Source of the DNA: Serratia sp. Ag1
GTDB taxonomy: Bacteria; Pseudomonadota; Gammaproteobacteria; Enterobacterales; Enterobacteriaceae
Assembly: GCF_000743355.1 (NCBI RefSeq)
Contig: NZ_JQEI01000052.1
Span: 1-45,436, forward strand
DNA: 45,436 nucleotides
Direction of reading: 5' to 3'
How positions within the stretch are numbered: position 1 is the stretch's first letter; the number at the start of each line of letters is the position of its first letter. A model generated the notes under the pieces. It saw only the letters and a program-made list of their open reading frames with translations, had not been told where the DNA came from and did not search any database. Positions 49-11,127 of this stretch are shown here, piece after piece. A program made the translations under genes and the position numbers.

Positions 49-1237
49 GAAACACCCCCACGTGCGTGGGGAAGACGCAGACAGCGTTCGATATGTCTAT
101 CGAGCCATAGAAACACCCCCACGTGCGTGGGGAAGACAAAGGTGTCCACCAACCACTTAATGGTGAAAAGGAAACACCCCCACGTGCGTGGGGAAGACCT
201 TCCGCCGATACTCCCGACAATTCGCGTCCTAAGAAACACCCCCACGTGCGTGGGGAAGACTAGAAAGGAAACGGCCACAGATGCCCTGGCTGAAGAAACA
301 CCCCCACGTGCGTGGGGAAGACCGCTGCATGCCCTTTACGATGCGTCGCAGCGTAGAAACACCCCCACGTGCGTGGGGAAGACGATTTCTCACCAGGTCT
401 GAACAATGTCAGCAGGGAAACACCCCCACGTGCGTGGGGAAGACTGATTTTTATGATCACAGCAAAGATGAATTAGAGAAACACCCCCACGTGCGTGGGG
501 AAGACCTACATCGAGCCAAGTCGAACGTGATGAAATCAGAAACACCCCCACGTGCGTGGGGAAGACTCCCATGACGCGACAACGTTTACCCACAGGGCGG
601 AAACACCCCCACGTGCGTGGGGAAGACGAAAACGTCAAATCGTAACCGGGACGGTGGGTGGAAACACCCCCACGTGCGTGGGGAAGACCCAAGTCTGCAT
701 TTCGCGTTCAATCATCTTTAAGAAACACCCCCACGTGCGTGGGGAAGACCTAGTGCAATTGATGGCATTAATAAGGCAATGGGAAACACCCCCACGTGCG
801 TGGGGAAGACAATCCCTGCTCATCACGCGCAGGCACCCTAAGAGAAACACCCCCACGTGCGTGGGGAAGACTTGTCGTGCTTTACTTTCGCCAAGTGCTA
901 AATAGAAACACCCCCACGTGCGTGGGGAAGACTCACGCGGTTCAAATCGCAAGCCATATGAAACAGAAACACCCCCACGTGCGTGGGGAAGACCCCATCG
1001 GAGTTAACGCTATGTATACATTCAAAGAAACACCCCCACGTGCGTGGGGAAGACGTTTCAGAATATGCGGTACTGACGACGACCACAGAAACACCCCCAC
1101 GTGCGTGGGGAAGACACCGCTTAGACCGCGATGAGTGCGACTATGATAGAAACACCCCCACGTGCGTGGGGAAGACTCTGCCGGTAGCGGGGAGGATGGC
1201 GCGGAGGCAGAAACACCCCCACGTGCGTGGGGAAGAC
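49..1237 (-). CRISPR. Type I-E CRISPR array, 20 repeats / 19 spacers
   Basis: Twenty copies of one 28-bp repeat start at 49, 110, 171, 233, 295, 356, 417, 478, 539, 600, 661, 722, 783, 844, 905, 966, 1027, 1088, 1149 and 1210. I read all of them as identical. Spacers are 33 bp, except the third and fourth from the left (199-232 and 261-294), which are 34 bp. Read on the minus strand the repeat starts GTCTTCCCCACGCACGTGGG and ends GGTGTTTC; its core folds as CCCCAC-GCAC-GTGGGG, the I-E stem-loop processed by Cas6e. This orientation puts the leader at the right end, next to cas2, so transcription runs leftward and the newest spacers should be near 1209. The base left of every repeat on the plus strand is a purine (14 A, 6 G). 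Positions 1-48 contain no repeat remnant, so the distal end is probably complete. Confidence 0.98.
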
Positions 1238-1284: not shown

Positions 1285-1572
1285 TTATGGGGATTTCAGG
1301 GTTTCAATAATGAGTTGTAATCCGCTGATATTAGTAATTGGTTTTCTGATCTCACCTTTGTAACGAATTTCGTAGCCTGGCGGTTGAGGAATACTTCTAA
1401 ACAGCATAAGACCAGACTCTGTCGGAGAATATTGCATCAAGTAATCAACAACTGTTTGTGCAACAGAATCTTTTACACCAGATACAAACACGTTCGGGCG
1501 AGGCTCGATAAACCAGAGTTTCATACGTCCACGAACAGCAGGTGGTAAGTCATTTGCGAGTACGACGAGCAT
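1285..1572 (-). CDS. cas2: Cas2e, CRISPR adaptation protein
   Basis: This 95-aa protein starts MLVVLANDLPPAVRGRMKLW and has the length and N-terminal pattern of type I-E Cas2. In E. coli a Cas2 dimer bridges two Cas1 dimers to make the integrase complex that inserts new spacers at the leader-repeat junction. The start is supported by a run of five G about 6 nt upstream, and the gene overlaps the cas1 3' end by 23 nt, which suggests translational coupling. The stop lies 47 bp from the array, so its 3' end may also serve as leader DNA. No truncation or frameshift is seen. The family assignment is firm; catalytic activity of Cas2e is not needed for integration in the E. coli system. Confidence 0.96.
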   Translation of the reverse strand: MLVVLANDLPPAVRGRMKLWFIEPRPNVFVSGVKDSVAQTVVDYLMQYSPTESGLMLFRSIPQPPGYEIRYKGEIRKPITNISGLQLIIETLKSP

Positions 1573-2425
1573 GTTTAACCCCCATCAAATCATTAACATC
1601 AACTGTGATCTGATTGAGCAAATCCATGGCAATGACTCGCTTCCTGAATGTTTCAGAGACTTTGTGTTTATCATATCGGCCAGCCATTTCTCGAGTGAGG
1701 GAAAATGCAAGATCAATACAAAGTTGTTCCTTGTAAAGATCGGCTAAATCATAAACAAAAGGTAATGGGCTACCAGAATGAATAAATCCAACATGGGGGG
1801 AATACCCCATGGAGTGGACGGCTGAACACAATATTCCATAAAGCGCTGCATTGGTGGCGGTTAGTACTTGATTGGTCAGATCACTCAGCTGAAATTTGCC
1901 CGGTGTAAACTGGCGTCCTTGCCAACTTACGCCATACTCTTCAGCTTTTTGCTGATATAACGCACGAACACGATTACCTTCCATTCCCATCATGCTGTTT
2001 AAACTCTTACCATCCAGTTCAGCATCAGGAAAACGTTTTGCGAACATCGCTCTGGCGATCTTAAGAGAAGACTCCTCATTGTTGGCAAGAGCCATCTGCA
2101 ATTTAAGATTGCGTGTATCGGCGGTAGGAAGAAAACCTGCGGCATAAAACAGCAGGCTATCCTCTCCAACCCAGCACACAGAGCAGTTGGCTGCGACTGC
2201 CGTTTTAACCGCTTCATGAGTCACTGTGGTACCAGGGCCAAGCAGCAACGTGTTGATGGTTGCGACAGGGATCGGCACCACATTGGCCTCCGAGTCAACC
2301 CACTTTACGCTGCTATCATCTATCTCTAATCGGCCGCGCTCCAGATACAGGAAGGGATATTTGTCTTTTACCTGGGGCAATGATTCACGAGTCACTTTTA
2401 CAAACAGTCGCTCTCCCTTAGCCAT
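1550..2425 (-). CDS. cas1: Cas1e, CRISPR integrase
   Basis: The 291-aa protein is the integrase subunit of the spacer-acquisition complex. Expected metal-binding positions of the family are visible: an acidic residue in GMEGNRVRALY, the histidine in VGFIHSGSPLPF, and the aspartate in FVYDLADLYKEQ, matching E. coli Glu141, His208 and Asp221 by context. The N-terminal beta domain and C-terminal helical domain are full length. Its ATG lies in the TAATG overlap with the cas5e stop, and its end overlaps cas2 by 23 nt, so cas5e-cas1-cas2 are probably co-translated. I see no disrupting mutation, so adaptation appears genetically intact. Confidence 0.97.
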   Translation of the reverse strand: MAKGERLFVKVTRESLPQVKDKYPFLYLERGRLEIDDSSVKWVDSEANVVPIPVATINTLLLGPGTTVTHEAVKTAVAANCSVCWVGEDSLLFYAAGFLPTADTRNLKLQMALANNEESSLKIARAMFAKRFPDAELDGKSLNSMMGMEGNRVRALYQQKAEEYGVSWQGRQFTPGKFQLSDLTNQVLTATNAALYGILCSAVHSMGYSPHVGFIHSGSPLPFVYDLADLYKEQLCIDLAFSLTREMAGRYDKHKVSETFRKRVIAMDLLNQITVDVNDLMGVKHARRTRK

Positions 2426-3141
2426 TAGCTGAACTCCAGCAATGTCACCCGTCGATCCCGATAACGTTTGTGCCGGCCAAACTGCACAGGGACATCGTTC
2501 AAAGTAATAATATCGCCATCTGTTTCCCCCTCAATGACGGCGTAGCTGAGTAACCGCTGTTTGTTATCTGCCAACGTTTGTGCTTGTTGCCAGGCAGCGT
2601 TTGCATCTTCAAATAATCCCTGATAAATCAGTTCGGTTGGTACACAGTTTTTGCGGCCCAGGTACAAATCCCACACCGGGTTTTGTAAAGCGTCAGATAA
2701 TGATCCCGCTTGCGTCTGGGGTACCGCCAATACCACGGCGAAAACCGAATCCTGCAGGTAGTAGCGATAGGTCATTTTGGTACCTCCACCGACGGCCTTT
2801 TTTCCATCAGAGGTTTTAGGTATCAACAGATTTTGCCAGGGGTCACTGTCATCGTAGCCACTACCCACCATCTGAAAGTCACGCAATGCAGGCTCACGTA
2901 GTTGCAGTTGGCCTTTACTATCAATACGGGCGTATGCCCGTACCTCCATGCTCATGTCATTCATTTGCGCCAGCCATTCGATTTCGGGGCCACCAGCCCC
3001 TCGAGCGCAGCAAAGCAGGCCAAGGATACCCGAGCGTGTGGGGAAGTTCAGCGTATCACGTACCCCAAACTTGGAGTCGTGTCCCCAGGCTTGCAGCGGC
3101 CCTTCAAGCCACAAGAGCATATATTGGGTTGATTCGCGCAT
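2425..3141 (-). CDS. cas5e: Cas5e (CasD), Cascade subunit
   Basis: This 238-aa RAMP protein has the Cas5 N-terminal pattern (LLWLEGPLQAWG, then the region of KFGVRDTLNFPTRSGILGLL), which forms the ferredoxin-like fold. In Cascade it grips the 5' handle of the crRNA and contacts Cas8e. The ATG at 3141 has GGGAG 7-8 nt upstream, placed just after the cas7e stop, 12 nt away; an internal ATG six codons in is a weaker alternative. The stop overlaps the cas1 start by one base. It sits between cas7e and cas1 because cas6e has moved upstream. Confidence 0.95.
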   Translation of the reverse strand: MRESTQYMLLWLEGPLQAWGHDSKFGVRDTLNFPTRSGILGLLCCARGAGGPEIEWLAQMNDMSMEVRAYARIDSKGQLQLREPALRDFQMVGSGYDDSDPWQNLLIPKTSDGKKAVGGGTKMTYRYYLQDSVFAVVLAVPQTQAGSLSDALQNPVWDLYLGRKNCVPTELIYQGLFEDANAAWQQAQTLADNKQRLLSYAVIEGETDGDIITLNDVPVQFGRHKRYRDRRVTLLEFS

Positions 3142-3153
3142 CTTTAATCTCCC

Positions 3154-4188
3154 TTACAGATGAGACTGTAGATCAGCAATCAGGCTATCGATACTGTATT
3201 CAAGGTTATCACCCCATTCATAATCCCCTTGTTTGCCAAACAACGAACCGGATAGCTTTTCTTTTTTGTCGAGCCAGGCGTTAAGTTCGACTTTGCTTGG
3301 GGAGAGGAAACCTTCGCCTTTACTTTTCACGGGTTGTTCAAAAGATGCTTGCAGGCGTTGGCCTTTACGCACCAGTACGCGGGCGTATTCCCAGGGGCAT
3401 GCACCCGATTGCGTTGTCTGGCGTGCGTCCGGCACGGCAACATACAGTGCCTTTACAAAGGCATCTACGGCAGTCTTAAAGTTTGCATCTTCTCCCAACG
3501 TTTGTTCCAACTGTCCTAGATCAAGGCTCACATAACGGTAGTAAGTTGCTGAGTTATATTCCAAACTGCCCATATGTGCGGAGCCGCTTTCGTATTCGGT
3601 TTTACAGTCATCCACCGCCGTAAAAAACTCCACTTCGTTGGTCACTTTGTGGGTTGAGATAGCATGTGCGAATGACGCTGCCGCTTCGACATTCATATCC
3701 GGTGCCCTGGCAACCATGCGGCCAAACAGCGCAATATCCAGTGCATCAAGCGTTTTGTTAACGACTTTTTTGGACACTTTTACCAGATCTTTGTCTTTCA
3801 GTTTCGCTACTTCAAAACCATTTTCTTGCGCATAAGTGGCAAACGCTTTGGCTTCAGTTTCACTCAGAAATAACAAGGTATCGTCGGAAAAAAATGCGGC
3901 CATCGCCTCACCACATTGAGTCGCTTGCTCTTCACTGGCACCAAGTGCCAGACACTCATTGGTTAACATGGCGGCTATCTTTTTGCTGCGGATCCCGAGT
4001 CGAATACCAAAATCGGGCATAGCAAGGCGTACTTGACGTTTCCAGCATTGTGACGACACGCGTGCTCGCGGCACGCCGCCGATGATGGCTGACTTGGGGG
4101 CACCGACATCATCACGATTAAGACAGGTCACCGGGAATGATTGCAGGATGTGGAATTCAATACGGGTATTTTTATATGGGGTAGTCAT
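3154..4188 (-). CDS. cas7e: Cas7e (CasC), Cascade backbone
   Basis: This 344-aa protein is the backbone subunit that polymerises along the crRNA spacer (six copies in E. coli Cascade). The N-terminus reads RIEFHILQSFPVTCLNRDD, followed by GVPRARVSSQCWKR, both characteristic of Cas7e. The ATG at 4188 is chosen because AAGGAC lies 6-8 nt upstream and because an upstream in-frame ATG at 4239 would run into cas6e. The 31-nt gap to cas6e is the largest inside the operon. Length is close to E. coli CasC (363 aa). Confidence 0.95.
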   Translation of the reverse strand: MTTPYKNTRIEFHILQSFPVTCLNRDDVGAPKSAIIGGVPRARVSSQCWKRQVRLAMPDFGIRLGIRSKKIAAMLTNECLALGASEEQATQCGEAMAAFFSDDTLLFLSETEAKAFATYAQENGFEVAKLKDKDLVKVSKKVVNKTLDALDIALFGRMVARAPDMNVEAAASFAHAISTHKVTNEVEFFTAVDDCKTEYESGSAHMGSLEYNSATYYRYVSLDLGQLEQTLGEDANFKTAVDAFVKALYVAVPDARQTTQSGACPWEYARVLVRKGQRLQASFEQPVKSKGEGFLSPSKVELNAWLDKKEKLSGSLFGKQGDYEWGDNLEYSIDSLIADLQSHL

Positions 4189-4219
4189 AACATTGTCCTT
4201 GTAAAAGATACTTTGGAAA

Positions 4220-4867
4220 TCAGGCAAATGGATTGTCAATGAGCGGCACTATTTGCAATAGGCCACAGCCAAACGCGCGGCCCTTGCCAATACCATGTTT
4301 AAAGCTGTTGTGAAATTGCGATAGGTTGGTCACAGTGAGCTGCCCCTGAATATGAGCTCTGCCAAGTGTTACCTGTTGGCCAATCTTGTCTTGAAATTGC
4401 AATACCTCAATGGCGTCTACCTGTAAGGTTTGAGGGGCTACCTCGAATCCCCAGCTATTGGCGGCCCGCTGTAAAAACCATTGAGCGATATCAGTGCGGC
4501 CCTTTACCGCAACTCGTTTACCACTCTGTTTATCCTTGCGCACCGGGTTCACCTGCACCTTGAAGCGATAGTTGGAGTGAGTCAAAAACGCATCAGCAAT
4601 GGGCTTGCTGATCACTTTGCCGTATTGGCCCTCTACTTGTGTTGCTGGCTGCCGGTCTGAAACAATCAGCACTTTGCGGCTATAAAAGTCACCGCCCTGA
4701 TCGGCATAAACGATACCGCTTGGGATATGGCTCTGTTTTTCGGCTTCCGCACGTTTATCAGAAAACAAGCTGTACACTACCCGGTGCAACGAATAGACAT
4801 CAGTCACTTTCAGCGCTTTGACGGCGACACGGTCAAGGTGTAGGGCACTTGCGAATAGCTTAGTCAT
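4220..4867 (-). CDS. cas6e: Cas6e (CasE), pre-crRNA endoribonuclease
   Basis: This 215-aa protein cleaves the repeat transcript at the base of its stem-loop and stays bound to the 3' hairpin as the Cascade head. The C-terminal glycine-rich loop GIGKGRAFGCGLLQIVPL is the Cas6e signature, and a histidine in the N-terminal part (VYSLHRVVYSLF) fits the catalytic position of CasE. The start MTKLFASALHLDR at 4867 overlaps the cse2 stop by 8 nt (ATGACTAA). An upstream ATG at 4891 would overlap cse2 further and adds residues not expected for the family. The gene sits between cse2 and cas7e, unlike E. coli, where casE follows casD. Confidence 0.94.
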   Translation of the reverse strand: MTKLFASALHLDRVAVKALKVTDVYSLHRVVYSLFSDKRAEAEKQSHIPSGIVYADQGGDFYSRKVLIVSDRQPATQVEGQYGKVISKPIADAFLTHSNYRFKVQVNPVRKDKQSGKRVAVKGRTDIAQWFLQRAANSWGFEVAPQTLQVDAIEVLQFQDKIGQQVTLGRAHIQGQLTVTNLSQFHNSFKHGIGKGRAFGCGLLQIVPLIDNPFA

Positions 4868-5426
4868 GAGAGAGCTCCGAAGCAGTTTCATCCACCTCTA
4901 CGGCGCGACGATAGAACTCTTGTGCCCAGCGAGCTCGAATCTGCTCTTGCCTGTGCCCGGAAAACCTCAGCAATTGCTCCAGCAACTGGCAGTAATCAGG
5001 TGTGACACCACGGCTTGTCATCAAGGCTAACAATGGCCGTAAAATGCGACAGGCTTCACTCGTACTGGTACAGGCCAGCAGGCGGCGCAGGCGAGCCTTG
5101 GCCTGATCAGACTGATTCCCCTCATCAAAACAGGTGGCAATCGCTGTACCCAAGGGTAACTTGCCATTGGCTGCGGGTTTAGCCTTTGCCAGGGAGGCGC
5201 CTACGGTGCAGTAGGGCAAACGCTCCCACTCTTTTTCGAGATCAACGCTAAAATTGGCCAGCAACTCCCAGCTTTGATATTCCATTGTGGGGTTGTCTGC
5301 TCGTTTGAGCCGAGCAGCAAAGCCGTTGTCCTTTTTGATACGATCAATCACGTAGCTGACGAATCGTTCGGCTCTAGAGAACTTGCCGGGATTTGGGGCC
5401 GTAGTATCTACAGAGGGCTGAGCCAT
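4860..5426 (-). CDS. cse2: Cse2 (CasB), Cascade small subunit
   Basis: The 188-aa helical protein matches the Cse2 family in length, in position directly after cas8e, and in patterns such as LANFSVDLEKEWERLPYCTV and the arginine-rich RRLLACTS. Two copies form the belly of Cascade and stabilise the displaced DNA strand of the R-loop. It starts 13 nt after the cas8e stop with a strong AAGGAG ribosome site, and its stop overlaps the start of cas6e. It is the least conserved Cascade subunit, so the call leans on context as well as sequence. Confidence 0.92.
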   Translation of the reverse strand: MAQPSVDTTAPNPGKFSRAERFVSYVIDRIKKDNGFAARLKRADNPTMEYQSWELLANFSVDLEKEWERLPYCTVGASLAKAKPAANGKLPLGTAIATCFDEGNQSDQAKARLRRLLACTSTSEACRILRPLLALMTSRGVTPDYCQLLEQLLRFSGHRQEQIRARWAQEFYRRAVEVDETASELSHD

Positions 5427-5439
5427 ATAGGTTTTCTCC

Positions 5440-6963
5440 TTAGTCAGCGTTTAAATATTTGGAAAAGTTGGGGCGAGCTTGGGCCCAGGCGTCCATTTGA
5501 CGGGCACTGTCGTTTGGGCATATTTGGTCAAAAACTTGAATGGCGTAAGCAACGAAGGTTTTGCGCAGTTGAAAACGTTGTTGCCTGGCTTCTTCGGTCG
5601 TGTCACAGGCGTTAATCATGCACTGAGCCTGGCGTTCGCAGAGTTGCCAGAAGATCCCAGTCGCTTTCTCAACCTGATTCGCAACAAAGGGTTGAGCCTT
5701 GCCTGTACCGGATTTATCAATATCAGATAGCTGACGGAAATAACGGACAACCGCCCCCCAAAGCGTTTTCTGGATAGCTTCAAGTTGTGCCATTTCATGT
5801 TTTAGGTGTTCCATAAACACGTCGTTAAGCAAGTCGGATGATAGCCACATTTCAGACTGAACGTAGTCGTCAGTACCGGATGCATATTGCTCTCCGGCAT
5901 TACTGCTGACCCGTAAACCGCCTGACCAGAGAGCAAATTGCTCGGCACTGCGAGACACGCGTTTTAGTGTGTGTTTCAGTTGCAGTGTGTCAAAACCAGC
6001 TGTTTTATTTTGCTCGATAAACTGCAATAAGGAGGTTAATTCTCGCCAAGGACGTTTACTTGGATTTACCCATAAGGCTCTCGGTTTTTTCTGGGCAAAA
6101 TCCACCGAAACCGTCGGGTCTGCTTTTCCTTCCAGATAACCTGCATGAGCAATACCATCGGTGTAGTGAATGCCGTTATCCGCCAACAGACAGAATTTAC
6201 CCATCGGTATCAGTCGGCCAATCAGTGACTCTTTTAACGATCGGGCAATTTCATCATCCTCGCCGGTGGGCATCTGTTCCCAGGGAGTAATTCCCAGCGT
6301 TGGATACATTACCAGTTCAGTAATATCCTCATGGGTAAACAAATTTAGCCAAATGCTGTGTGCAACGAAATCACCCAGCCAGAAAGAATGCAATAGACCC
6401 ATGTGCCCAACCGCAATACCGGCTTTGCCGCTGGCAGGCTTCCCCTTGTCGTTTTGTTTACCTTGGTAGCCGGCAGTTAATACCACTGAGTTATCGGTTT
6501 TCTTACCGCTGAGGCCAAATCCCATTTGAACGATAACGGTAATGGCTTTATCAGCATCATTGCTTTTTTGCTCTTGCTGAGTTTCCGTTAGTATCGTTGT
6601 GTTGCCAGTACTGATCTCTGGTGACAATACGCCCAGAGACTTGACTTCAGCAGCCCGAATGGCAGGGATCTGTAAAAACGGTCTTTCGCCGTACAGATAA
6701 AATCTGTCATGCCATTTATCAAGATAATGTAGACACTTGTCCGCCATCCCCTGCCAGCCCATTCGCTTCCAATCATCGTCATCATCGGGTGTTGCCGCAG
6801 TTTGAGCGATGGCTAATAACAGTTTGGTGAGAGCAATTTTCTGCACAGGGTTACCACCTAAAGCACGTAATTGTGGGTTGCTAAAAATCTCTTTCAGGCT
6901 GACCCGGCCCACATCCGCAACGGATATCCAGGGTTCATCAATCAAGTTAAAGCGGTTTTCCAT
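5440..6963 (-). CDS. cas8e: Cas8e (Cse1/CasA), Cascade large subunit
   Basis: The 507-aa protein has the typical Cse1 opening (FNLIDEPWISV) and length (E. coli CasA is 502 aa). This subunit recognises the PAM, starts DNA unwinding and recruits Cas3. A central segment (GHMGLLHSFWLGDFVAHSIWLNLF) and a C-terminal four-helix-bundle region are present. The gene starts 3 nt after the cas3 stop and is followed by cse2 after 13 nt. No internal stop or frameshift. PAM specificity cannot be read from the sequence alone. Confidence 0.95.
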   Translation of the reverse strand: MENRFNLIDEPWISVADVGRVSLKEIFSNPQLRALGGNPVQKIALTKLLLAIAQTAATPDDDDDWKRMGWQGMADKCLHYLDKWHDRFYLYGERPFLQIPAIRAAEVKSLGVLSPEISTGNTTILTETQQEQKSNDADKAITVIVQMGFGLSGKKTDNSVVLTAGYQGKQNDKGKPASGKAGIAVGHMGLLHSFWLGDFVAHSIWLNLFTHEDITELVMYPTLGITPWEQMPTGEDDEIARSLKESLIGRLIPMGKFCLLADNGIHYTDGIAHAGYLEGKADPTVSVDFAQKKPRALWVNPSKRPWRELTSLLQFIEQNKTAGFDTLQLKHTLKRVSRSAEQFALWSGGLRVSSNAGEQYASGTDDYVQSEMWLSSDLLNDVFMEHLKHEMAQLEAIQKTLWGAVVRYFRQLSDIDKSGTGKAQPFVANQVEKATGIFWQLCERQAQCMINACDTTEEARQQRFQLRKTFVAYAIQVFDQICPNDSARQMDAWAQARPNFSKYLNAD

Positions 6964-6966
6964 CGT

Positions 6967-9582
6967 TTATTCCTTATTGGAAATGGCCCGGAAGCCAAGA
7001 TCTTCACGGTATTCAAGCAGGTATTTATCGCCAGCCGGGTAGCCGTCCTGAGTAAGCAATTCGCCTGTTTTGCTGACGATGGCAACGCGCAGCAAAGCTT
7101 CGTCATCTTCTGGTCGACCAAGATAAAACACCTCATGCAGGTGCAGTTTTTCCAGCTCATGTTTAGCGGTTTTGGGCGGGCAATAAGCTGGATTGACTCG
7201 CACCAGTTGCTGGTTAAGGGCTACAGCCAGTTTGCGCCATTCCGCTTTGGTCAGGCGGTGACGGCCATGAGGCAGGGTTAATTCGCTGCCATCGAGTAAA
7301 CGGATATGGGTCGTATCATCTTGTGTGCGTAAGCTGCGCAGTAATAACAGGTCGTGTGTGTCCCGCTCGCTATAGCGGGTTTCCGCTTTGTGCTCTGGCA
7401 ATGTTTTGCCGCCTTTCGATAAAGTCAGCTTGGCCAGAGCCTGTTGGGCCTGTTCGCCAGTACGGAACCGGCTGCCATTTTTCAGTTCGTGCAGCAAGCT
7501 GGCCCATTGCTCAGTTTCAGTGCGTTCGGCATAGGTTTGATCGATTAAAGGGCGAATGCCTGAGGGTAACCGGATTGACTGCATGTCTTTCCAGACTTCA
7601 AGGCTGCGGCACAACACATAGGGTGAGTACACCATGGCGCTCAAGCCAAAAGCAGAGTGAGGATTAGCCAGGGCGTGCTCCAGCGTTGGGGTCAGCAACC
7701 AGCATTCGGGTTTGGCACCGGCATGGCGCGGGGTGTCTGTGTGCCGCCAAAGACGGCCAAGACGCTGTAGCAACATATCGGTGGGGGCAAAGCGGGTTAC
7801 CAGAAAATCAGCGTCAATATCGAGCGACTGTTCCAGTACCTGTGTACCGACCAGAATACGCCCACAGTGTGCACGTTGGGGCCACCCAGCCCGGCCATAG
7901 AGGTTTACCCAACGACCTTCGTTGCGTGCTCGGTCATGAGGAGTAAAACGCGAATGTAGCAAGCCCGTTTCACATCCTGCCTGCGTCGCGCGGCTGGCGA
8001 TATCAAGATACCGCTGTTGGGCTTCCGCAACCGTGTTTTCAATCCATAAGACCTGTTGGCCCTGAGTTGCCCGCTTAAGTGCCTCTTCCAATGCTTGTTC
8101 ATTTTTATCGCATGAATGAAGTATTACGGGAGGATTGTCTACCGTGGGCACCCCCACCTCAACCAGCTTATTTTTTTCCTTCACCGCTGGCAGAGCCGTA
8201 ACCAGTGGGTAGGCGGTGCTGGTTGTTGTCTGTTGTAAGAGCGCTTCACGCCGCGCCTGGCTCAAGGTAGCACTGAGAATAATCACGGTGCAGTCTATTT
8301 GCCGCAGAAATGCCACCAGTTCGTTGAGAATAGTACCGGTGTAAAGATCATAGCTGTGCACCTCGTCCAGGATGACGACCTTGCCAGCCAGACCAAAGGC
8401 TCTGACAAAACCATGTTTGACGTTCATAACCGCCATTAACGCCTGATCAATAGTGCCGACAGCGAACGGAGCCAGTAAACCGCGTTTATTTTGGCTGAAC
8501 CATGAGCCGCCAGGGCGGCCTTCTTCGCCTATTTCAGTATCCTGCAGCCAGGCACCAGAATGCAGCAACAAAGCCTGTTTGGGGGTTTCTGCGCTAACGA
8601 CTTGCTTCAAAAAAGCATTGAAGCGATCGTAAATCTTGTTGGAGGTCAATTGGGTTGGCAACACAAAGTAAATACCCGTCGCTTTTTCCTGTGATAATAG
8701 CCGATAAGCGGCATATAAGGCCGCCTCGGTTTTTCCCATCCCCATCTGGGCTTCGAGAATATAAACCCCAGGCTCCGACACTTGCTCGATAAACAGTGAC
8801 TGCGGTTCACGCAGTTGCATCGTGAGATTAGCGGGATCAAATACTTCAGTAAAAGACAGTCCGTGGCGAATGACGGGCTTGATAAAACCAGCGTCATTCA
8901 AGGCTGCTGCAATATTGGGCCGCCAATCTTCATCAGGGTTTTCAAAAAACTCGCCGGAGCCAATCCAGTCAGAGACTGAAGTTAACCCAGCGACGACACG
9001 GGCCTGGGCTGCGGAGTCAAACTTCGGCCAGTCCGCTTGCAAGCACTCTTTTAGCGCGGCCACCAGTTTCTTGCGTTCGTCAAACCAACTGGGGCCACCA
9101 AAGACGCCAGCATTGCCGCGTTTATCATCAACCGGTGGGTTAAAACCATGGTGTTGACCGAGGATTGCGGCAACATACTTCGGTACTCCAATTTCTTCTG
9201 CTGTGGCCTGACTGACCCCGGCATGTCCCCCCCATTGTTTCTCAAGTTCGGGGGCTACACCGGTCAGTTCCGGTATCTTTGTGTAGTCGATACCGCAGGC
9301 TGAGAGAATCCTTGCCACAAAAGTCGGGCTGACTTTGCCGATATCATGGCTGCCCACAGCCATTTCACTCCCGGTTGGGAACAAACGGTCTCGTATTGAC
9401 TCGGGGAAGCGGGATATCAGCTGGCGCGCAACTTCAGCGACAATCTGGCAGTGGCTTAGCACCGAACGGCCTAAAACGACGGTTCCATCACTTAATATCC
9501 GAGTTTTAGCCGGGCACTTTTCGAAGAAAATCGCAGAGACTATATTGTCGGTTTGTGAAGGCATTTTTGTTAAGCGTCTCAC
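6967..9582 (-). CDS. cas3: Cas3, HD nuclease-helicase
   Basis: This large protein (871 aa from the chosen start) is the interference nuclease-helicase recruited by Cascade. The N-terminal HD nuclease domain shows SHDIGK near residue 80. The SF2 helicase follows with Walker A MGMGKTEAA near residue 280, the DEAD-type box ILDEVHSYD near 405, LSATLS, and the arginine-finger motif QRLGRLWRH; a Cas3 C-terminal domain ends the protein. I chose the GTG at 9582 because AAGGA lies 9 nt upstream; the ATG at 9564 is the main alternative, with a weaker ribosome site. Being first in the operon, its upstream 170 bp should hold the cas promoter. Confidence 0.95.
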   Translation of the reverse strand: MRRLTKMPSQTDNIVSAIFFEKCPAKTRILSDGTVVLGRSVLSHCQIVAEVARQLISRFPESIRDRLFPTGSEMAVGSHDIGKVSPTFVARILSACGIDYTKIPELTGVAPELEKQWGGHAGVSQATAEEIGVPKYVAAILGQHHGFNPPVDDKRGNAGVFGGPSWFDERKKLVAALKECLQADWPKFDSAAQARVVAGLTSVSDWIGSGEFFENPDEDWRPNIAAALNDAGFIKPVIRHGLSFTEVFDPANLTMQLREPQSLFIEQVSEPGVYILEAQMGMGKTEAALYAAYRLLSQEKATGIYFVLPTQLTSNKIYDRFNAFLKQVVSAETPKQALLLHSGAWLQDTEIGEEGRPGGSWFSQNKRGLLAPFAVGTIDQALMAVMNVKHGFVRAFGLAGKVVILDEVHSYDLYTGTILNELVAFLRQIDCTVIILSATLSQARREALLQQTTTSTAYPLVTALPAVKEKNKLVEVGVPTVDNPPVILHSCDKNEQALEEALKRATQGQQVLWIENTVAEAQQRYLDIASRATQAGCETGLLHSRFTPHDRARNEGRWVNLYGRAGWPQRAHCGRILVGTQVLEQSLDIDADFLVTRFAPTDMLLQRLGRLWRHTDTPRHAGAKPECWLLTPTLEHALANPHSAFGLSAMVYSPYVLCRSLEVWKDMQSIRLPSGIRPLIDQTYAERTETEQWASLLHELKNGSRFRTGEQAQQALAKLTLSKGGKTLPEHKAETRYSERDTHDLLLLRSLRTQDDTTHIRLLDGSELTLPHGRHRLTKAEWRKLAVALNQQLVRVNPAYCPPKTAKHELEKLHLHEVFYLGRPEDDEALLRVAIVSKTGELLTQDGYPAGDKYLLEYREDLGFRAISNKE

Positions 9583-9641
9583 TATCAATCATCCTTGCTC
9601 AAAGTAGTTTATCCGCAGACGTCAAACTGAATTCATAGGAC

Positions 9642-9660
9642 ACAACTAAATAAGAGTTGT
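9642..9660. promoter_or_regulatory. Palindrome upstream of cas3, candidate operator
   Basis: ACAACT and AGTTGT flank a 7-bp spacer in the 170-bp gap between the WYL regulator and cas3, about 60 bp before cas3. A second small palindrome (ATTGG-taatt-CCAAT read on the minus strand, around 9720-9735) lies in the same gap. They could be operators for the neighbouring WYL protein. This is inference from position and symmetry only. Confidence 0.4.
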
Positions 9661-9752
9661 ATTGGAATGAGAGCTTGCTATTTATAAAATCCCCGCACAA
9701 TACTGTACGGATATTCAGGTTAATTGGAATTACCAATCCACTGCTTGCGCAC

Positions 9753-10592
9753 TCACCAACTGTTAAAAAACCATTGCTTGATGTCATCTCTGTTTACCAG
9801 CACCAATTGTTGGGCTTCGGGTTTTCCATCAAGATATTTAGTATTTACCTGCAATTCTTTCAGCAAGTAGTCGGCAAGGGCGGCTCGGGTTTTTATCTGA
9901 AGCTGGTTATTTTCCATCTGATAGTCATTGGCAAGAACATCTTGTTGGGCAGGGTTTAATCGTGGGTCAGGTGATAAAACTAACGTAATGTAGGTTTGCC
10001 AGGCTTCATCTTGAACAATCGAGTGGGGCGATAAACCTTCGATTTCTGCTTTTTCTCTAAAGCGACTCAGAACAAGGTCACGAAACCCTTGCGATTTTTC
10101 ACAATATCCTCGCACATGGAAACGGCTTCCTGCTTTGACAATACTGTGTGGGCTAAAGATTCGCCCTTCATTTTCAGGATTAGATAGCGAGGTATAGTTC
10201 ACTTCTATTCGTAAACCTTGATGAATAGCTTTTATCAACGTAGCGATTACTTGACGAGAGATTCTGCGCTCAGGTAATTCAAGCCGGGTTGCACAGGCAC
10301 TGGGTAATTGGCGGGCTAAAACAAAATAGCCAGTTTCAAGCCAGGAAAGAAAATTATCTAACCCACCATGAAAATATTGGGGCTGTTTATCATCAGCAAA
10401 AACGTACTGTGCTTTATTTAACTTGATGAGGTAATCGGGGTGCAAATTTTGATACTGAACAAAGTCTTTATATGCTTGCTGTCGGGTTATGCTGAACTGA
10501 TTTTCAAGGTCTTTATTACGCACTTCTCCCATCCAAAAGGCCAACATCTCAAGAAATGCGAATCGTTCATGAGTTAGCTTGGTACTACTCAT
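9753..10592 (-). CDS. WYL-domain transcriptional regulator (CapW/BrxR-like)
   Basis: The 279-aa protein has an N-terminal winged-helix part (residues about 1-70, with RQQAYKDFVQYQ) and a WYL domain (about 115-200). The segment RIFSPHSIVKAGSRFHVRGYC followed by FRDLVLSRF fits the ligand-pocket strands of BrxR/CapW-type WYL proteins, and a C-terminal extension domain follows. Proteins of this family repress phage-defence operons such as BREX and CBASS until infection. Here the gene lies directly upstream of cas3 on the same strand, about 170 bp away, so it may control the cas operon, itself, or both. The family call is good; the target is inferred from position. Confidence 0.8.
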   Translation of the reverse strand: MSSTKLTHERFAFLEMLAFWMGEVRNKDLENQFSITRQQAYKDFVQYQNLHPDYLIKLNKAQYVFADDKQPQYFHGGLDNFLSWLETGYFVLARQLPSACATRLELPERRISRQVIATLIKAIHQGLRIEVNYTSLSNPENEGRIFSPHSIVKAGSRFHVRGYCEKSQGFRDLVLSRFREKAEIEGLSPHSIVQDEAWQTYITLVLSPDPRLNPAQQDVLANDYQMENNQLQIKTRAALADYLLKELQVNTKYLDGKPEAQQLVLVNRDDIKQWFFNSW

Positions 10593-10723: not shown

Positions 10724-10753
10724 TCTAAAAATGGCCTGGTTCAGGCCATTTTC
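10724..10753 (-). terminator. Intrinsic terminator of the AraC-type gene
   Basis: On the minus strand AATGGCCTG and CAGGCCATT form a 9-bp stem with a 3-nt loop, followed by TTTAG. The stem overlaps the stop codon of the AraC-type regulator. Confidence 0.6.
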
Positions 10754-11127
10754 TGATGAATGATATGCAAAGGGGGTTCGATATGGAGGTCTACGCTCAG
10801 ATCCTGACGGAAATCATAGGGAGTGATATTGAAGCGTTTTCTGAACATATAGGTAAAATGCGACTGGGAACCAAAGCCAAAATCCAGCGCGATATCAAAG
10901 ATGGTCGCCTCACTGCTGCGTAGTTGATACACCGCTCCTGCCAGACGGCGCTCGCGGATATATTTGCCCAGCGAAATCCCCGTCGCTTCTTTGAACAATT
11001 TCTGCATATGCCACAGTGAGTAGCCTGAATACTCAGCCAGCTCTTCAAGGTGGATCACCCGCCCAAGGTGGGTTTCAACCCACTTACTGAGGGCGCAGAC
11101 TAATGAGAGGTGGTGTTCTTGTATCAA
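10741..11127 (-). CDS. AraC-family regulator, SoxS/MarA/RamA-like
   Basis: This 128-aa protein is little more than the AraC DNA-binding domain. It has a first helix-turn-helix around residues 26-50 (LEELAEYSGYSLWHMQKLFKEATG) and a second around 75-100 (IFDIALDFGFGSQSHFTYMFRKRF), followed by the family ending ITPYDFR. Small stand-alone AraC proteins of this type (SoxS, MarA, RamA, TetD) are controlled by abundance and activate stress and efflux genes. The extra 20 residues at the C-terminus are unlike SoxS. It is divergent from the hybrid kinase gene. Which regulon it controls cannot be told from the sequence. Confidence 0.85.
   Translation of the reverse strand: MIQEHHLSLVCALSKWVETHLGRVIHLEELAEYSGYSLWHMQKLFKEATGISLGKYIRERRLAGAVYQLRSSEATIFDIALDFGFGSQSHFTYMFRKRFNITPYDFRQDLSVDLHIEPPLHIIHQKMA

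Follow-up and report, generated by a model that had tools for sequence, protein, structure and literature searches.

A BrxR/CapW-family WYL regulator gene with a conserved predicted operator upstream of type I CRISPR-Cas operons of several subtypes

The window analysed here is a 45,436-nucleotide stretch of Serratia sp. Ag1 DNA in which a WYL regulator gene, a type I cas operon and a CRISPR array lie in succession. A GGAGGG stretch directly 5' of the WYL gene resembles a ribosome-binding site by eye. The cas genes, recognised by NCBIfam models, follow the WYL gene on the minus strand from 9588 to 1285 in the order cas3-cse1-cse2-cas6e-cas7-cas5-cas1-cas2, and the array comes last.

9753..10592, minus strand: BrxR/CapW-family WYL regulator gene (intact open reading frame, 279 residues, ATG start)
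6967..9588, minus strand: cas3 (873 residues, TTG start assumed; TIGR01587, TIGR01596; Cas3e in PADLOC)
5440..6963, minus strand: cse1/casA (TIGR02547)
4860..5426, minus strand: cse2/casB (TIGR02548)
4220..4891, minus strand: cas6e, ahead of cas7e as in the I-E* order (TIGR01907)
3154..4239, minus strand: cas7e (TIGR01869)
2425..3141, minus strand: cas5e (TIGR01868)
1550..2425, minus strand: cas1e (TIGR03638)
1285..1572, minus strand: cas2e (TIGR01873)
49..1237, no strand assigned: CRISPR array of 20 repeats, GAAACACCCCCACGTGCGTGGGGAAGAC

As the initial annotation stated, the WYL gene stands upstream of cas3 on the same strand; the distance measured here is 164 bp. In the I-E gene set of the window, cas6e is placed between cse2 and cas7e, and the repeat is that of I-E* systems, identical to the one given for I-E* in the available text of PMC9981886. 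A Rob/SoxS-like AraC-family gene (10741-11127) precedes the WYL gene on its strand, with no hint of a link between the two. The pairing of a WYL gene with I-E* is already in print: the same text describes it upstream of cas3 in Serratia sp. Ag1, Ag2 and DD3, whose loci resemble the window in repeat, cas6e translocation and WYL position, and for Ag1 it gives contig JQEI01000052.1 and a 20-repeat array. Because this contig is named there and a 20-repeat array is present in both, the window is probably the published Ag1 locus. For Serratia, the available text gives neither an operator nor a mechanism and mentions no WYL gene ahead of other subtypes; the wider, multi-subtype pattern reported below was not found in the literature searched.

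A WYL domain (PF13280) was detected at residues 115-180 of the window protein with an E-value of 1e-10. Searching the PDB with phmmer matched the protein to 7tb5 (E 1.4e-38; its PDB name is merely 'WYL domain-containing protein', and we take it to be a CapW), to the BrxR structure 7t8k (E 2.2e-38), to S. maltophilia CapW 7tb6 (E 2.8e-30), to 7qfz (E 1.8e-27) and to CapW 9c5g (E 1.3e-22). The predicted wHTH-WYL-WCX layout aligns over nearly the full length, residues 9-273 with 26-295 of 7tb5 and residues 10-273 with 14-281 of 7t8k, and these matches, together with PF13280, bear out the assignment to the CapW/BrxR family made initially. The DNA-contact motif, given in the available text of PMC9122589 as SRQQ in Acinetobacter BrxR and as diverged in E. 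fergusonii BrxR, is TRQQ in the window and [TS]RQQ in all ten rows of an alignment of close relatives (A3); in a wider set it varies (SRTQ, TRAQ, SQAT and SRDS among others), including in distant CRISPR-adjacent rows. A conserved WYL-domain Trp is implicated in allostery in the part of PMC9122588 consulted. The window protein departs from BrxR and CapW at this position, having Phe at residue 158; L047 also has Phe, L108 has Tyr and the other 25 rows compared have Trp. The eponymous residues of WYL domains are described as not strongly conserved (PMC4012209). R144, R157, R161, R177 and C164 are invariant in A3, a set that is compatible with a nucleic-acid groove and says no more. The window, L047 and L108 share both a TTAACC arm in the predicted operator described below and a Lys where other close relatives have Gln, a covariation that perhaps reflects a single event.

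To place the gene among its relatives, one genome per species was scanned across 84,980 species with three relatives (A1) as seeds. Nine loci were recovered, 51-80% identical to the window protein, including those of Pragia fontium and Shewanella salipaludis that earlier searches had already given, and in 9/9 the WYL gene precedes a type I cas operon. This operon is I-F in six loci, I-E* in Tolumonas osonensis and I-E in Shewanella NIFS-20-20. In S. salipaludis (L054, 10961-11411) the WYL gene is followed first by 5' pieces of cas1f and cas2/3f and then by an I-E* operon, so that the exchange of one CRISPR subtype for another behind an unchanged regulator has left a visible trace. This consistent placement supports the proposal, made at the outset, of a dedicated switch for the adjoining cas operon, and from the sequences we consider dedicated control of cas by the WYL protein highly likely. 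No relative was found when viral contigs were scanned with the window protein.

When 295 genomes from the order were searched with a ten-row profile, 103 of them gave matches at E 1e-20, and 55 places were fetched from this list with weaker rows excluded; L106 and L107, which repeat L048 and L051, were dropped, and L024 and L025 repeat L055 and L054. A class-wide search at E 1e-55 found five genomes besides the window's own among 369, comprising L153 (I-G), L155 (I-F behind a WYL gene with an internal stop) and three loci in which no cas gene was found (L154, L156, L157). In the resulting set of 70 loci, 33 are CRISPR-adjacent and 37 are not, three of the latter (L120, L127, L138) ending within 370 nt after the WYL stop codon. 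The possibility that the gene mostly occurs without a cas operon, named initially as an argument against a link, thus fails for the close relatives (9/9 with cas) and holds for many of the distant ones; restriction or other defence genes adjoin the WYL gene in some cas-less rows (ten and eight proteins scanned). Because the family profile was built from CRISPR-linked rows, its top matches lean that way; the check on this bias comes from the tree and from the 36 rows without adjacent CRISPR.

The CRISPR-adjacent relatives stand upstream of I-E*, I-E, I-F, I-Fv, I-C and I-G operons. The I-C operon at L111 encodes Cas5c, Cas8c, Cas7c, Cas4 and Cas1c, the I-Fv operons at L112 and L118 encode Cas7fv and Csy4, and the I-G operon at L153 encodes Cas3g, Csx17, Csb1 and Csb2. 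Subtypes were called by tblastn with the Cas proteins of the window, Pragia, L048, L111 and L112, and NCBIfam models were run on the window, L111, L112, L118 and L153, so that the I-E label of L048 rests on gene order and similarity. The I-F locus at L051 (11978-17641) combines a 77% identical Cas1f with divergent Csy1 and Csy2 behind it (31-33% to Pragia).

The gap between the WYL gene and cas3 contains two palindromes that were initially put forward as WYL sites, and a conserved block:

9642..9660, no strand assigned: ACAACT-N7-AGTTGT, the first proposed palindrome; unconserved, at chance level
9723..9737, no strand assigned: ATTGG-N5-CCAAT, the second proposed palindrome; overlaps the predicted operator, with its centre 4 bp off
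9717..9735 (centre 9726), minus strand: predicted operator TGGTAATTCCAATTAACCT, a diverged form of AGGTAAAGTNACTTTACCT (ten-gap alignment and block matrix)
9698..9705, minus strand: CAGTATTG, the conserved CAGNRTTG; its C lies 21 nt from the operator centre and its TTG is a likely -35

Both palindromes are present, but neither exceeds chance, since among 1000 dinucleotide shuffles of the gap (spacer up to 8) at least one perfect palindrome occurred in 72% for arms of 5 and in 27% for arms of 6. Neither is conserved in an alignment of ten gaps, and both were dropped as operators, the second merely overlapping the site predicted here. A switch peculiar to cas6e-before-cas7e I-E systems and acting through these palindromes would fit the position of the window and Tolumonas I-E* regulators as sister rows in the tree; given the chance-level palindromes, and the I-E, I-F, I-Fv, I-C and I-G operons served by the same clades, we regard it as the most improbable of the readings considered.

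The ten-gap alignment holds one conserved block, consisting of AGGTAAAGTNACTTTACCT, about eleven bases and CAGNRTTG, so that a palindromic predicted operator is centred 21 nt before CAGNRTTG, between regulator and cas. At up to two mismatches of 18, AGGTAAAGTNACTTTACCT is present in 8/8 loci (L048-L055), and scanning the corresponding whole genomes at up to one mismatch in 16 bases identified exactly one site in each of the eight, in the WYL-cas gap; this threshold was used because counts at three mismatches were similar to those of a backward control. At the same stringency the canonical form, represented for example by Pragia fontium and Vibrio sp. HA2012, is absent from the window's genome and from Tolumonas. 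The window operator is diverged, with 5/10 positions paired; L047 and L108, its nearest kin, likewise have diverged operators, with the TTAACC arm. A window-type pattern at up to one mismatch occurs on the window contig in the WYL-cas gap only. Uniqueness is not clean for the window, because a second exact match lies elsewhere in its own genome (C16:220214; L173 1715-1733), flanked by genes of fimbrial appearance, as judged by eye; this site may be a chance occurrence or a further target.

Across the wider set, half-sites differ between lineages and the centre remains constant, 21 nt before CAG. The mean number of paired positions is 7.0/10 at this centre vs 1.0-4.2 at the remaining centres between -45 and +25 (n=27). 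These statistics cover 27 of the 33 CRISPR-adjacent loci, L134, L145, L155, L168 and L169 having been dropped (no block at up to one mismatch) and L164 excluded beforehand; L153 was positioned by hand, and removal of six near relatives left 21 representatives. Exact CAGNRTTG was found in 25/33 CRISPR-adjacent loci vs 1/36 others (8/33 lack it), and combined with at least 6/10 pairing at -21 in 17/33 vs 1/36. A 39-nt block matrix built from 26 other loci, with the window excluded, picks window positions 9698-9736 as the best match on both strands of the 45 kb, scoring 14.3 vs 6.9 for the next; it gives the CRISPR-adjacent L117, whose block placement is one base off, a score of -1.5, so at least one such locus is missed. 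From the sequences we consider it very probable that the WYL protein binds the predicted operator. An action on the cas machinery after transcription, rather than through the gap, has a precedent in WYL1, which stimulates Cas13d as quoted in the available parts of PMC9122601 and PMC9122588; the alignment to BrxR and CapW through the wHTH, the BrxR DNA-contact motif, the conserved palindrome in the gap and the six kinds of effector operon served by related proteins all argue against it, and we consider it very unlikely indeed.

The cas6e-before-cas7e order, to which the regulator had been tied initially, turned out to be separable from it, and a constant link was dropped. The WYL gene is present in three of eight loci with this order (window, L047, L054) and absent from five (L026, L042, L043, L044, L045), and most CRISPR-adjacent relatives serve other subtypes. 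Two further I-E*-type finds fall outside the eight: H43, a near copy of H42, and L027, in which cse1 and cse2 were the only genes seen. Among 48 cas1f loci above the family cut-off in the 295 genomes, 13 have the WYL gene immediately upstream, one of them being the stray row L164. The cassette is therefore a frequent option and not a fixed part of these systems. Such optional occurrence would also be expected of a mobile defence regulator that hitchhikes beside cas without controlling it. That reading is very unlikely in our view, as both the operator and its spacing are conserved in lineages whose cas operons differ, and the block is missing as well from the four I-E*-order loci without WYL that were checked (best score -0.1 or lower; L045, which has no cas3, was left out). 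Among these loci, L042 on an E. asburiae plasmid has at 8365-9075 an unrelated 236-residue open reading frame upstream of cas3, with repeated HTH-like segments discerned by eye; its I-E* operon is about 90% identical in Cas3 and in Cse1, and its cas7 is interrupted by an IS21-type element. L043, on a K. pneumoniae plasmid, has CRISPR-like repeats directly upstream of cas3 of its I-E* operon and no WYL gene (8276-9000).

When promoters were scored with general sigma-70 hexamer frequencies, a -35 at the TTG of CAGNRTTG had the best mean score (6.33 vs 2.81 for the next) and was the top promoter in 12/21 representatives. The second-best position (mean 2.81, top in 3/21) places the -35 within the right arm of the operator (start -18). 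Hexamers resembling -10 at spacers of 15-19 exceed composition shuffles (0/2000), and do so at fixed positions (0/5000). The operator centre is 26 nt before the -35-like TTG and precedes the predicted cas start by about 61 bp, and a centre near -61 is the position of class I activators. This placement upstream of the -35 suggests activation. The promoter model is weakest at the window itself, owing to the diverged operator and to the lack of a good -10 after its TTG (rank 19 of 425); the -10 of Tolumonas is poor.

The same dedicated, operator-binding regulator could instead be a repressor relieved by ssDNA or another infection signal. Its closest characterised relatives point in this direction: BrxR and CapW are repressors in the available text of PMC9122601 and PMC9122588, and PMC13373217, in the part consulted, has CapW/BrxR repressing until ssDNA is bound. 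The operator core speaks for it as well. Upstream of brxR in Acinetobacter NEB 394 (L152), the best 10-5-10 palindrome is paired at 9/10 positions and has the core GTAAA-N5-TTTAC of the canonical operator; the available text of PMC9122589 describes the BrxR site as lying upstream of brxR with arms 9/10 and a 5-nt spacer and places it over a predicted -35. The L152 palindrome is putatively this published site, an identification of our own from its fit to the description. An operator over the -35, as in BrxR or DriD, is also the second-best promoter arrangement here and is kept as a rival placement. Against repression, in the best-supported promoter the operator precedes the -35, at constant spacing and near -61. 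Moreover, in L047-L055 the 350 nt that precede the WYL gene hold no match to the canonical operator at up to five mismatches, and an operator copy there was dropped; the BrxR/CapW layout, with the operator at the promoter of the regulator gene, gives way to a predicted operator downstream of WYL and before cas. Because the nearest studied relatives repress, we hold activation of cas at about an even chance, and repression as possible at distinctly less than that.

BrxR, from the BREX loci of Acinetobacter NEB 394 and E. fergusonii, shares with it the near full-length match to 7t8k, the [TS]RQQ motif of close relatives and GTAAA-N5-TTTAC around a 5-nt spacer, but, as far as the available accounts go, its first operator lies upstream of brxR itself and it represses, whereas the geometry at the present CRISPR loci suggests activation. 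CapW, the CBASS regulator, is similar in sequence and likewise adjoins a defence operon, but in the part of PMC9122588 consulted its sites cover part of the -10 element at the CBASS promoter, unlike the operator predicted here. DriD and PafBC appear in the sources available as ssDNA-responsive WYL activators that raise transcription, DriD doing so from promoters with poor hexamers, and DriD provides the precedent for an activator (available text of PMC12340889). They differ in that neither is linked to CRISPR there, and the DriD site overlaps the -35, whereas the predicted operator seems to lie upstream of it. Sll7009 of Synechocystis, described in the available text as an I-D repressor, is also a WYL protein regulating a CRISPR locus, in a different subtype and phylum.

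In our preferred explanation, the WYL protein, encoded in cis, would regulate the cas operon that follows its gene and be dedicated to it. A WYL dimer would bind the predicted operator (9717-9735), which lies between the WYL stop codon and cas3, and set transcription of the cas operon, most likely as an activator that recruits RNA polymerase. It would probably not be autoregulated in the manner of BrxR and CapW, since no operator copy was seen before the WYL gene itself. The switch would be thrown by a nucleic-acid ligand, most likely ssDNA arising from phage attack or DNA damage; the case for an ssDNA-like ligand seems to us evenly balanced. Regulator, operator and promoter would form one portable cassette that now stands before six kinds of type I operon. 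For the explanation as a whole, from dedicated regulator to portable cassette, we see the chances of its being right and wrong as about equal.

A tree of 69 rows, omitting the fragment L171, bears on portability. The CRISPR rows fall into a 25-row clade (support 95/76), a 7-row clade (97/96) and the stray row L164, and every row of both clades is CRISPR-adjacent (32/33 CRISPR-adjacent loci). A single clade of these 32 rows is not rejected (p-AU 0.321), the group having been named after the tree was viewed. With I-E* and I-E pooled as one state and L168 (cas1f only) placed with I-F, at least 14 subtype changes are needed over the 33 rows; shuffled labels need 15.0 on average, and 61/200 shuffles are as low or lower. 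In the present sample, then, regulator lineage does not predict cas subtype, and this independence makes the cassette look portable. A junction is visible between L115 (I-F) and L116 (I-E), which are 98% identical over the first 60 nt past the WYL stop codon and 52% identical over the next 40; their similarity ends behind CAGNRTTG. It is conceivable, though we put it somewhat below an even chance, that the BrxR-like WYL clades provide type I immunity in Gammaproteobacteria with an activator module that is both general and portable, with regulator, operator and promoter recombined as one cassette before I-E*, I-E, I-F, I-Fv, I-C and I-G operons and responding to a shared signal, probably ssDNA.

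Knowledge of what turns on type I CRISPR operons is piecemeal. An association of BrxR with CRISPR at large was already known: of 210 defence systems associated with BrxR in the available text of PMC9122601, 21 are CRISPR-Cas systems. A WYL-operator cassette common to type I subtypes was not found among the matches listed in the open PMC literature, as far as their text was available; 'WYL' is absent from the main text of PMC6360697 on Vibrio CRISPR loci, and the part of PMC7698835 consulted describes WYL genes in S. Typhi and mentions none beside cas3. A common cassette would offer one testable rule for the timing of adaptive-immunity expression across subtypes, would make the target of a regulator predictable from sequence, and would link CRISPR to the DNA-damage and infection sensing of CBASS and BREX. 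Should activation be confirmed, a single family would repress innate and activate adaptive defence, and if the portable activator module held true, unrelated CRISPR effector systems would answer one common signal.

In one genome (G411), two related WYL cassettes stand before an I-C operon (L124) and an I-F operon (L133) with nearly identical operators, so that the two systems may be co-induced. The single non-CRISPR locus with CAGNRTTG, L126, is a WYL row outside the CRISPR clades in which a similar operator and CAGTATTG (3800-3966) precede a restriction-type helicase gene (PLD-helicase-DUF3427), and the layout may therefore reach beyond CRISPR.
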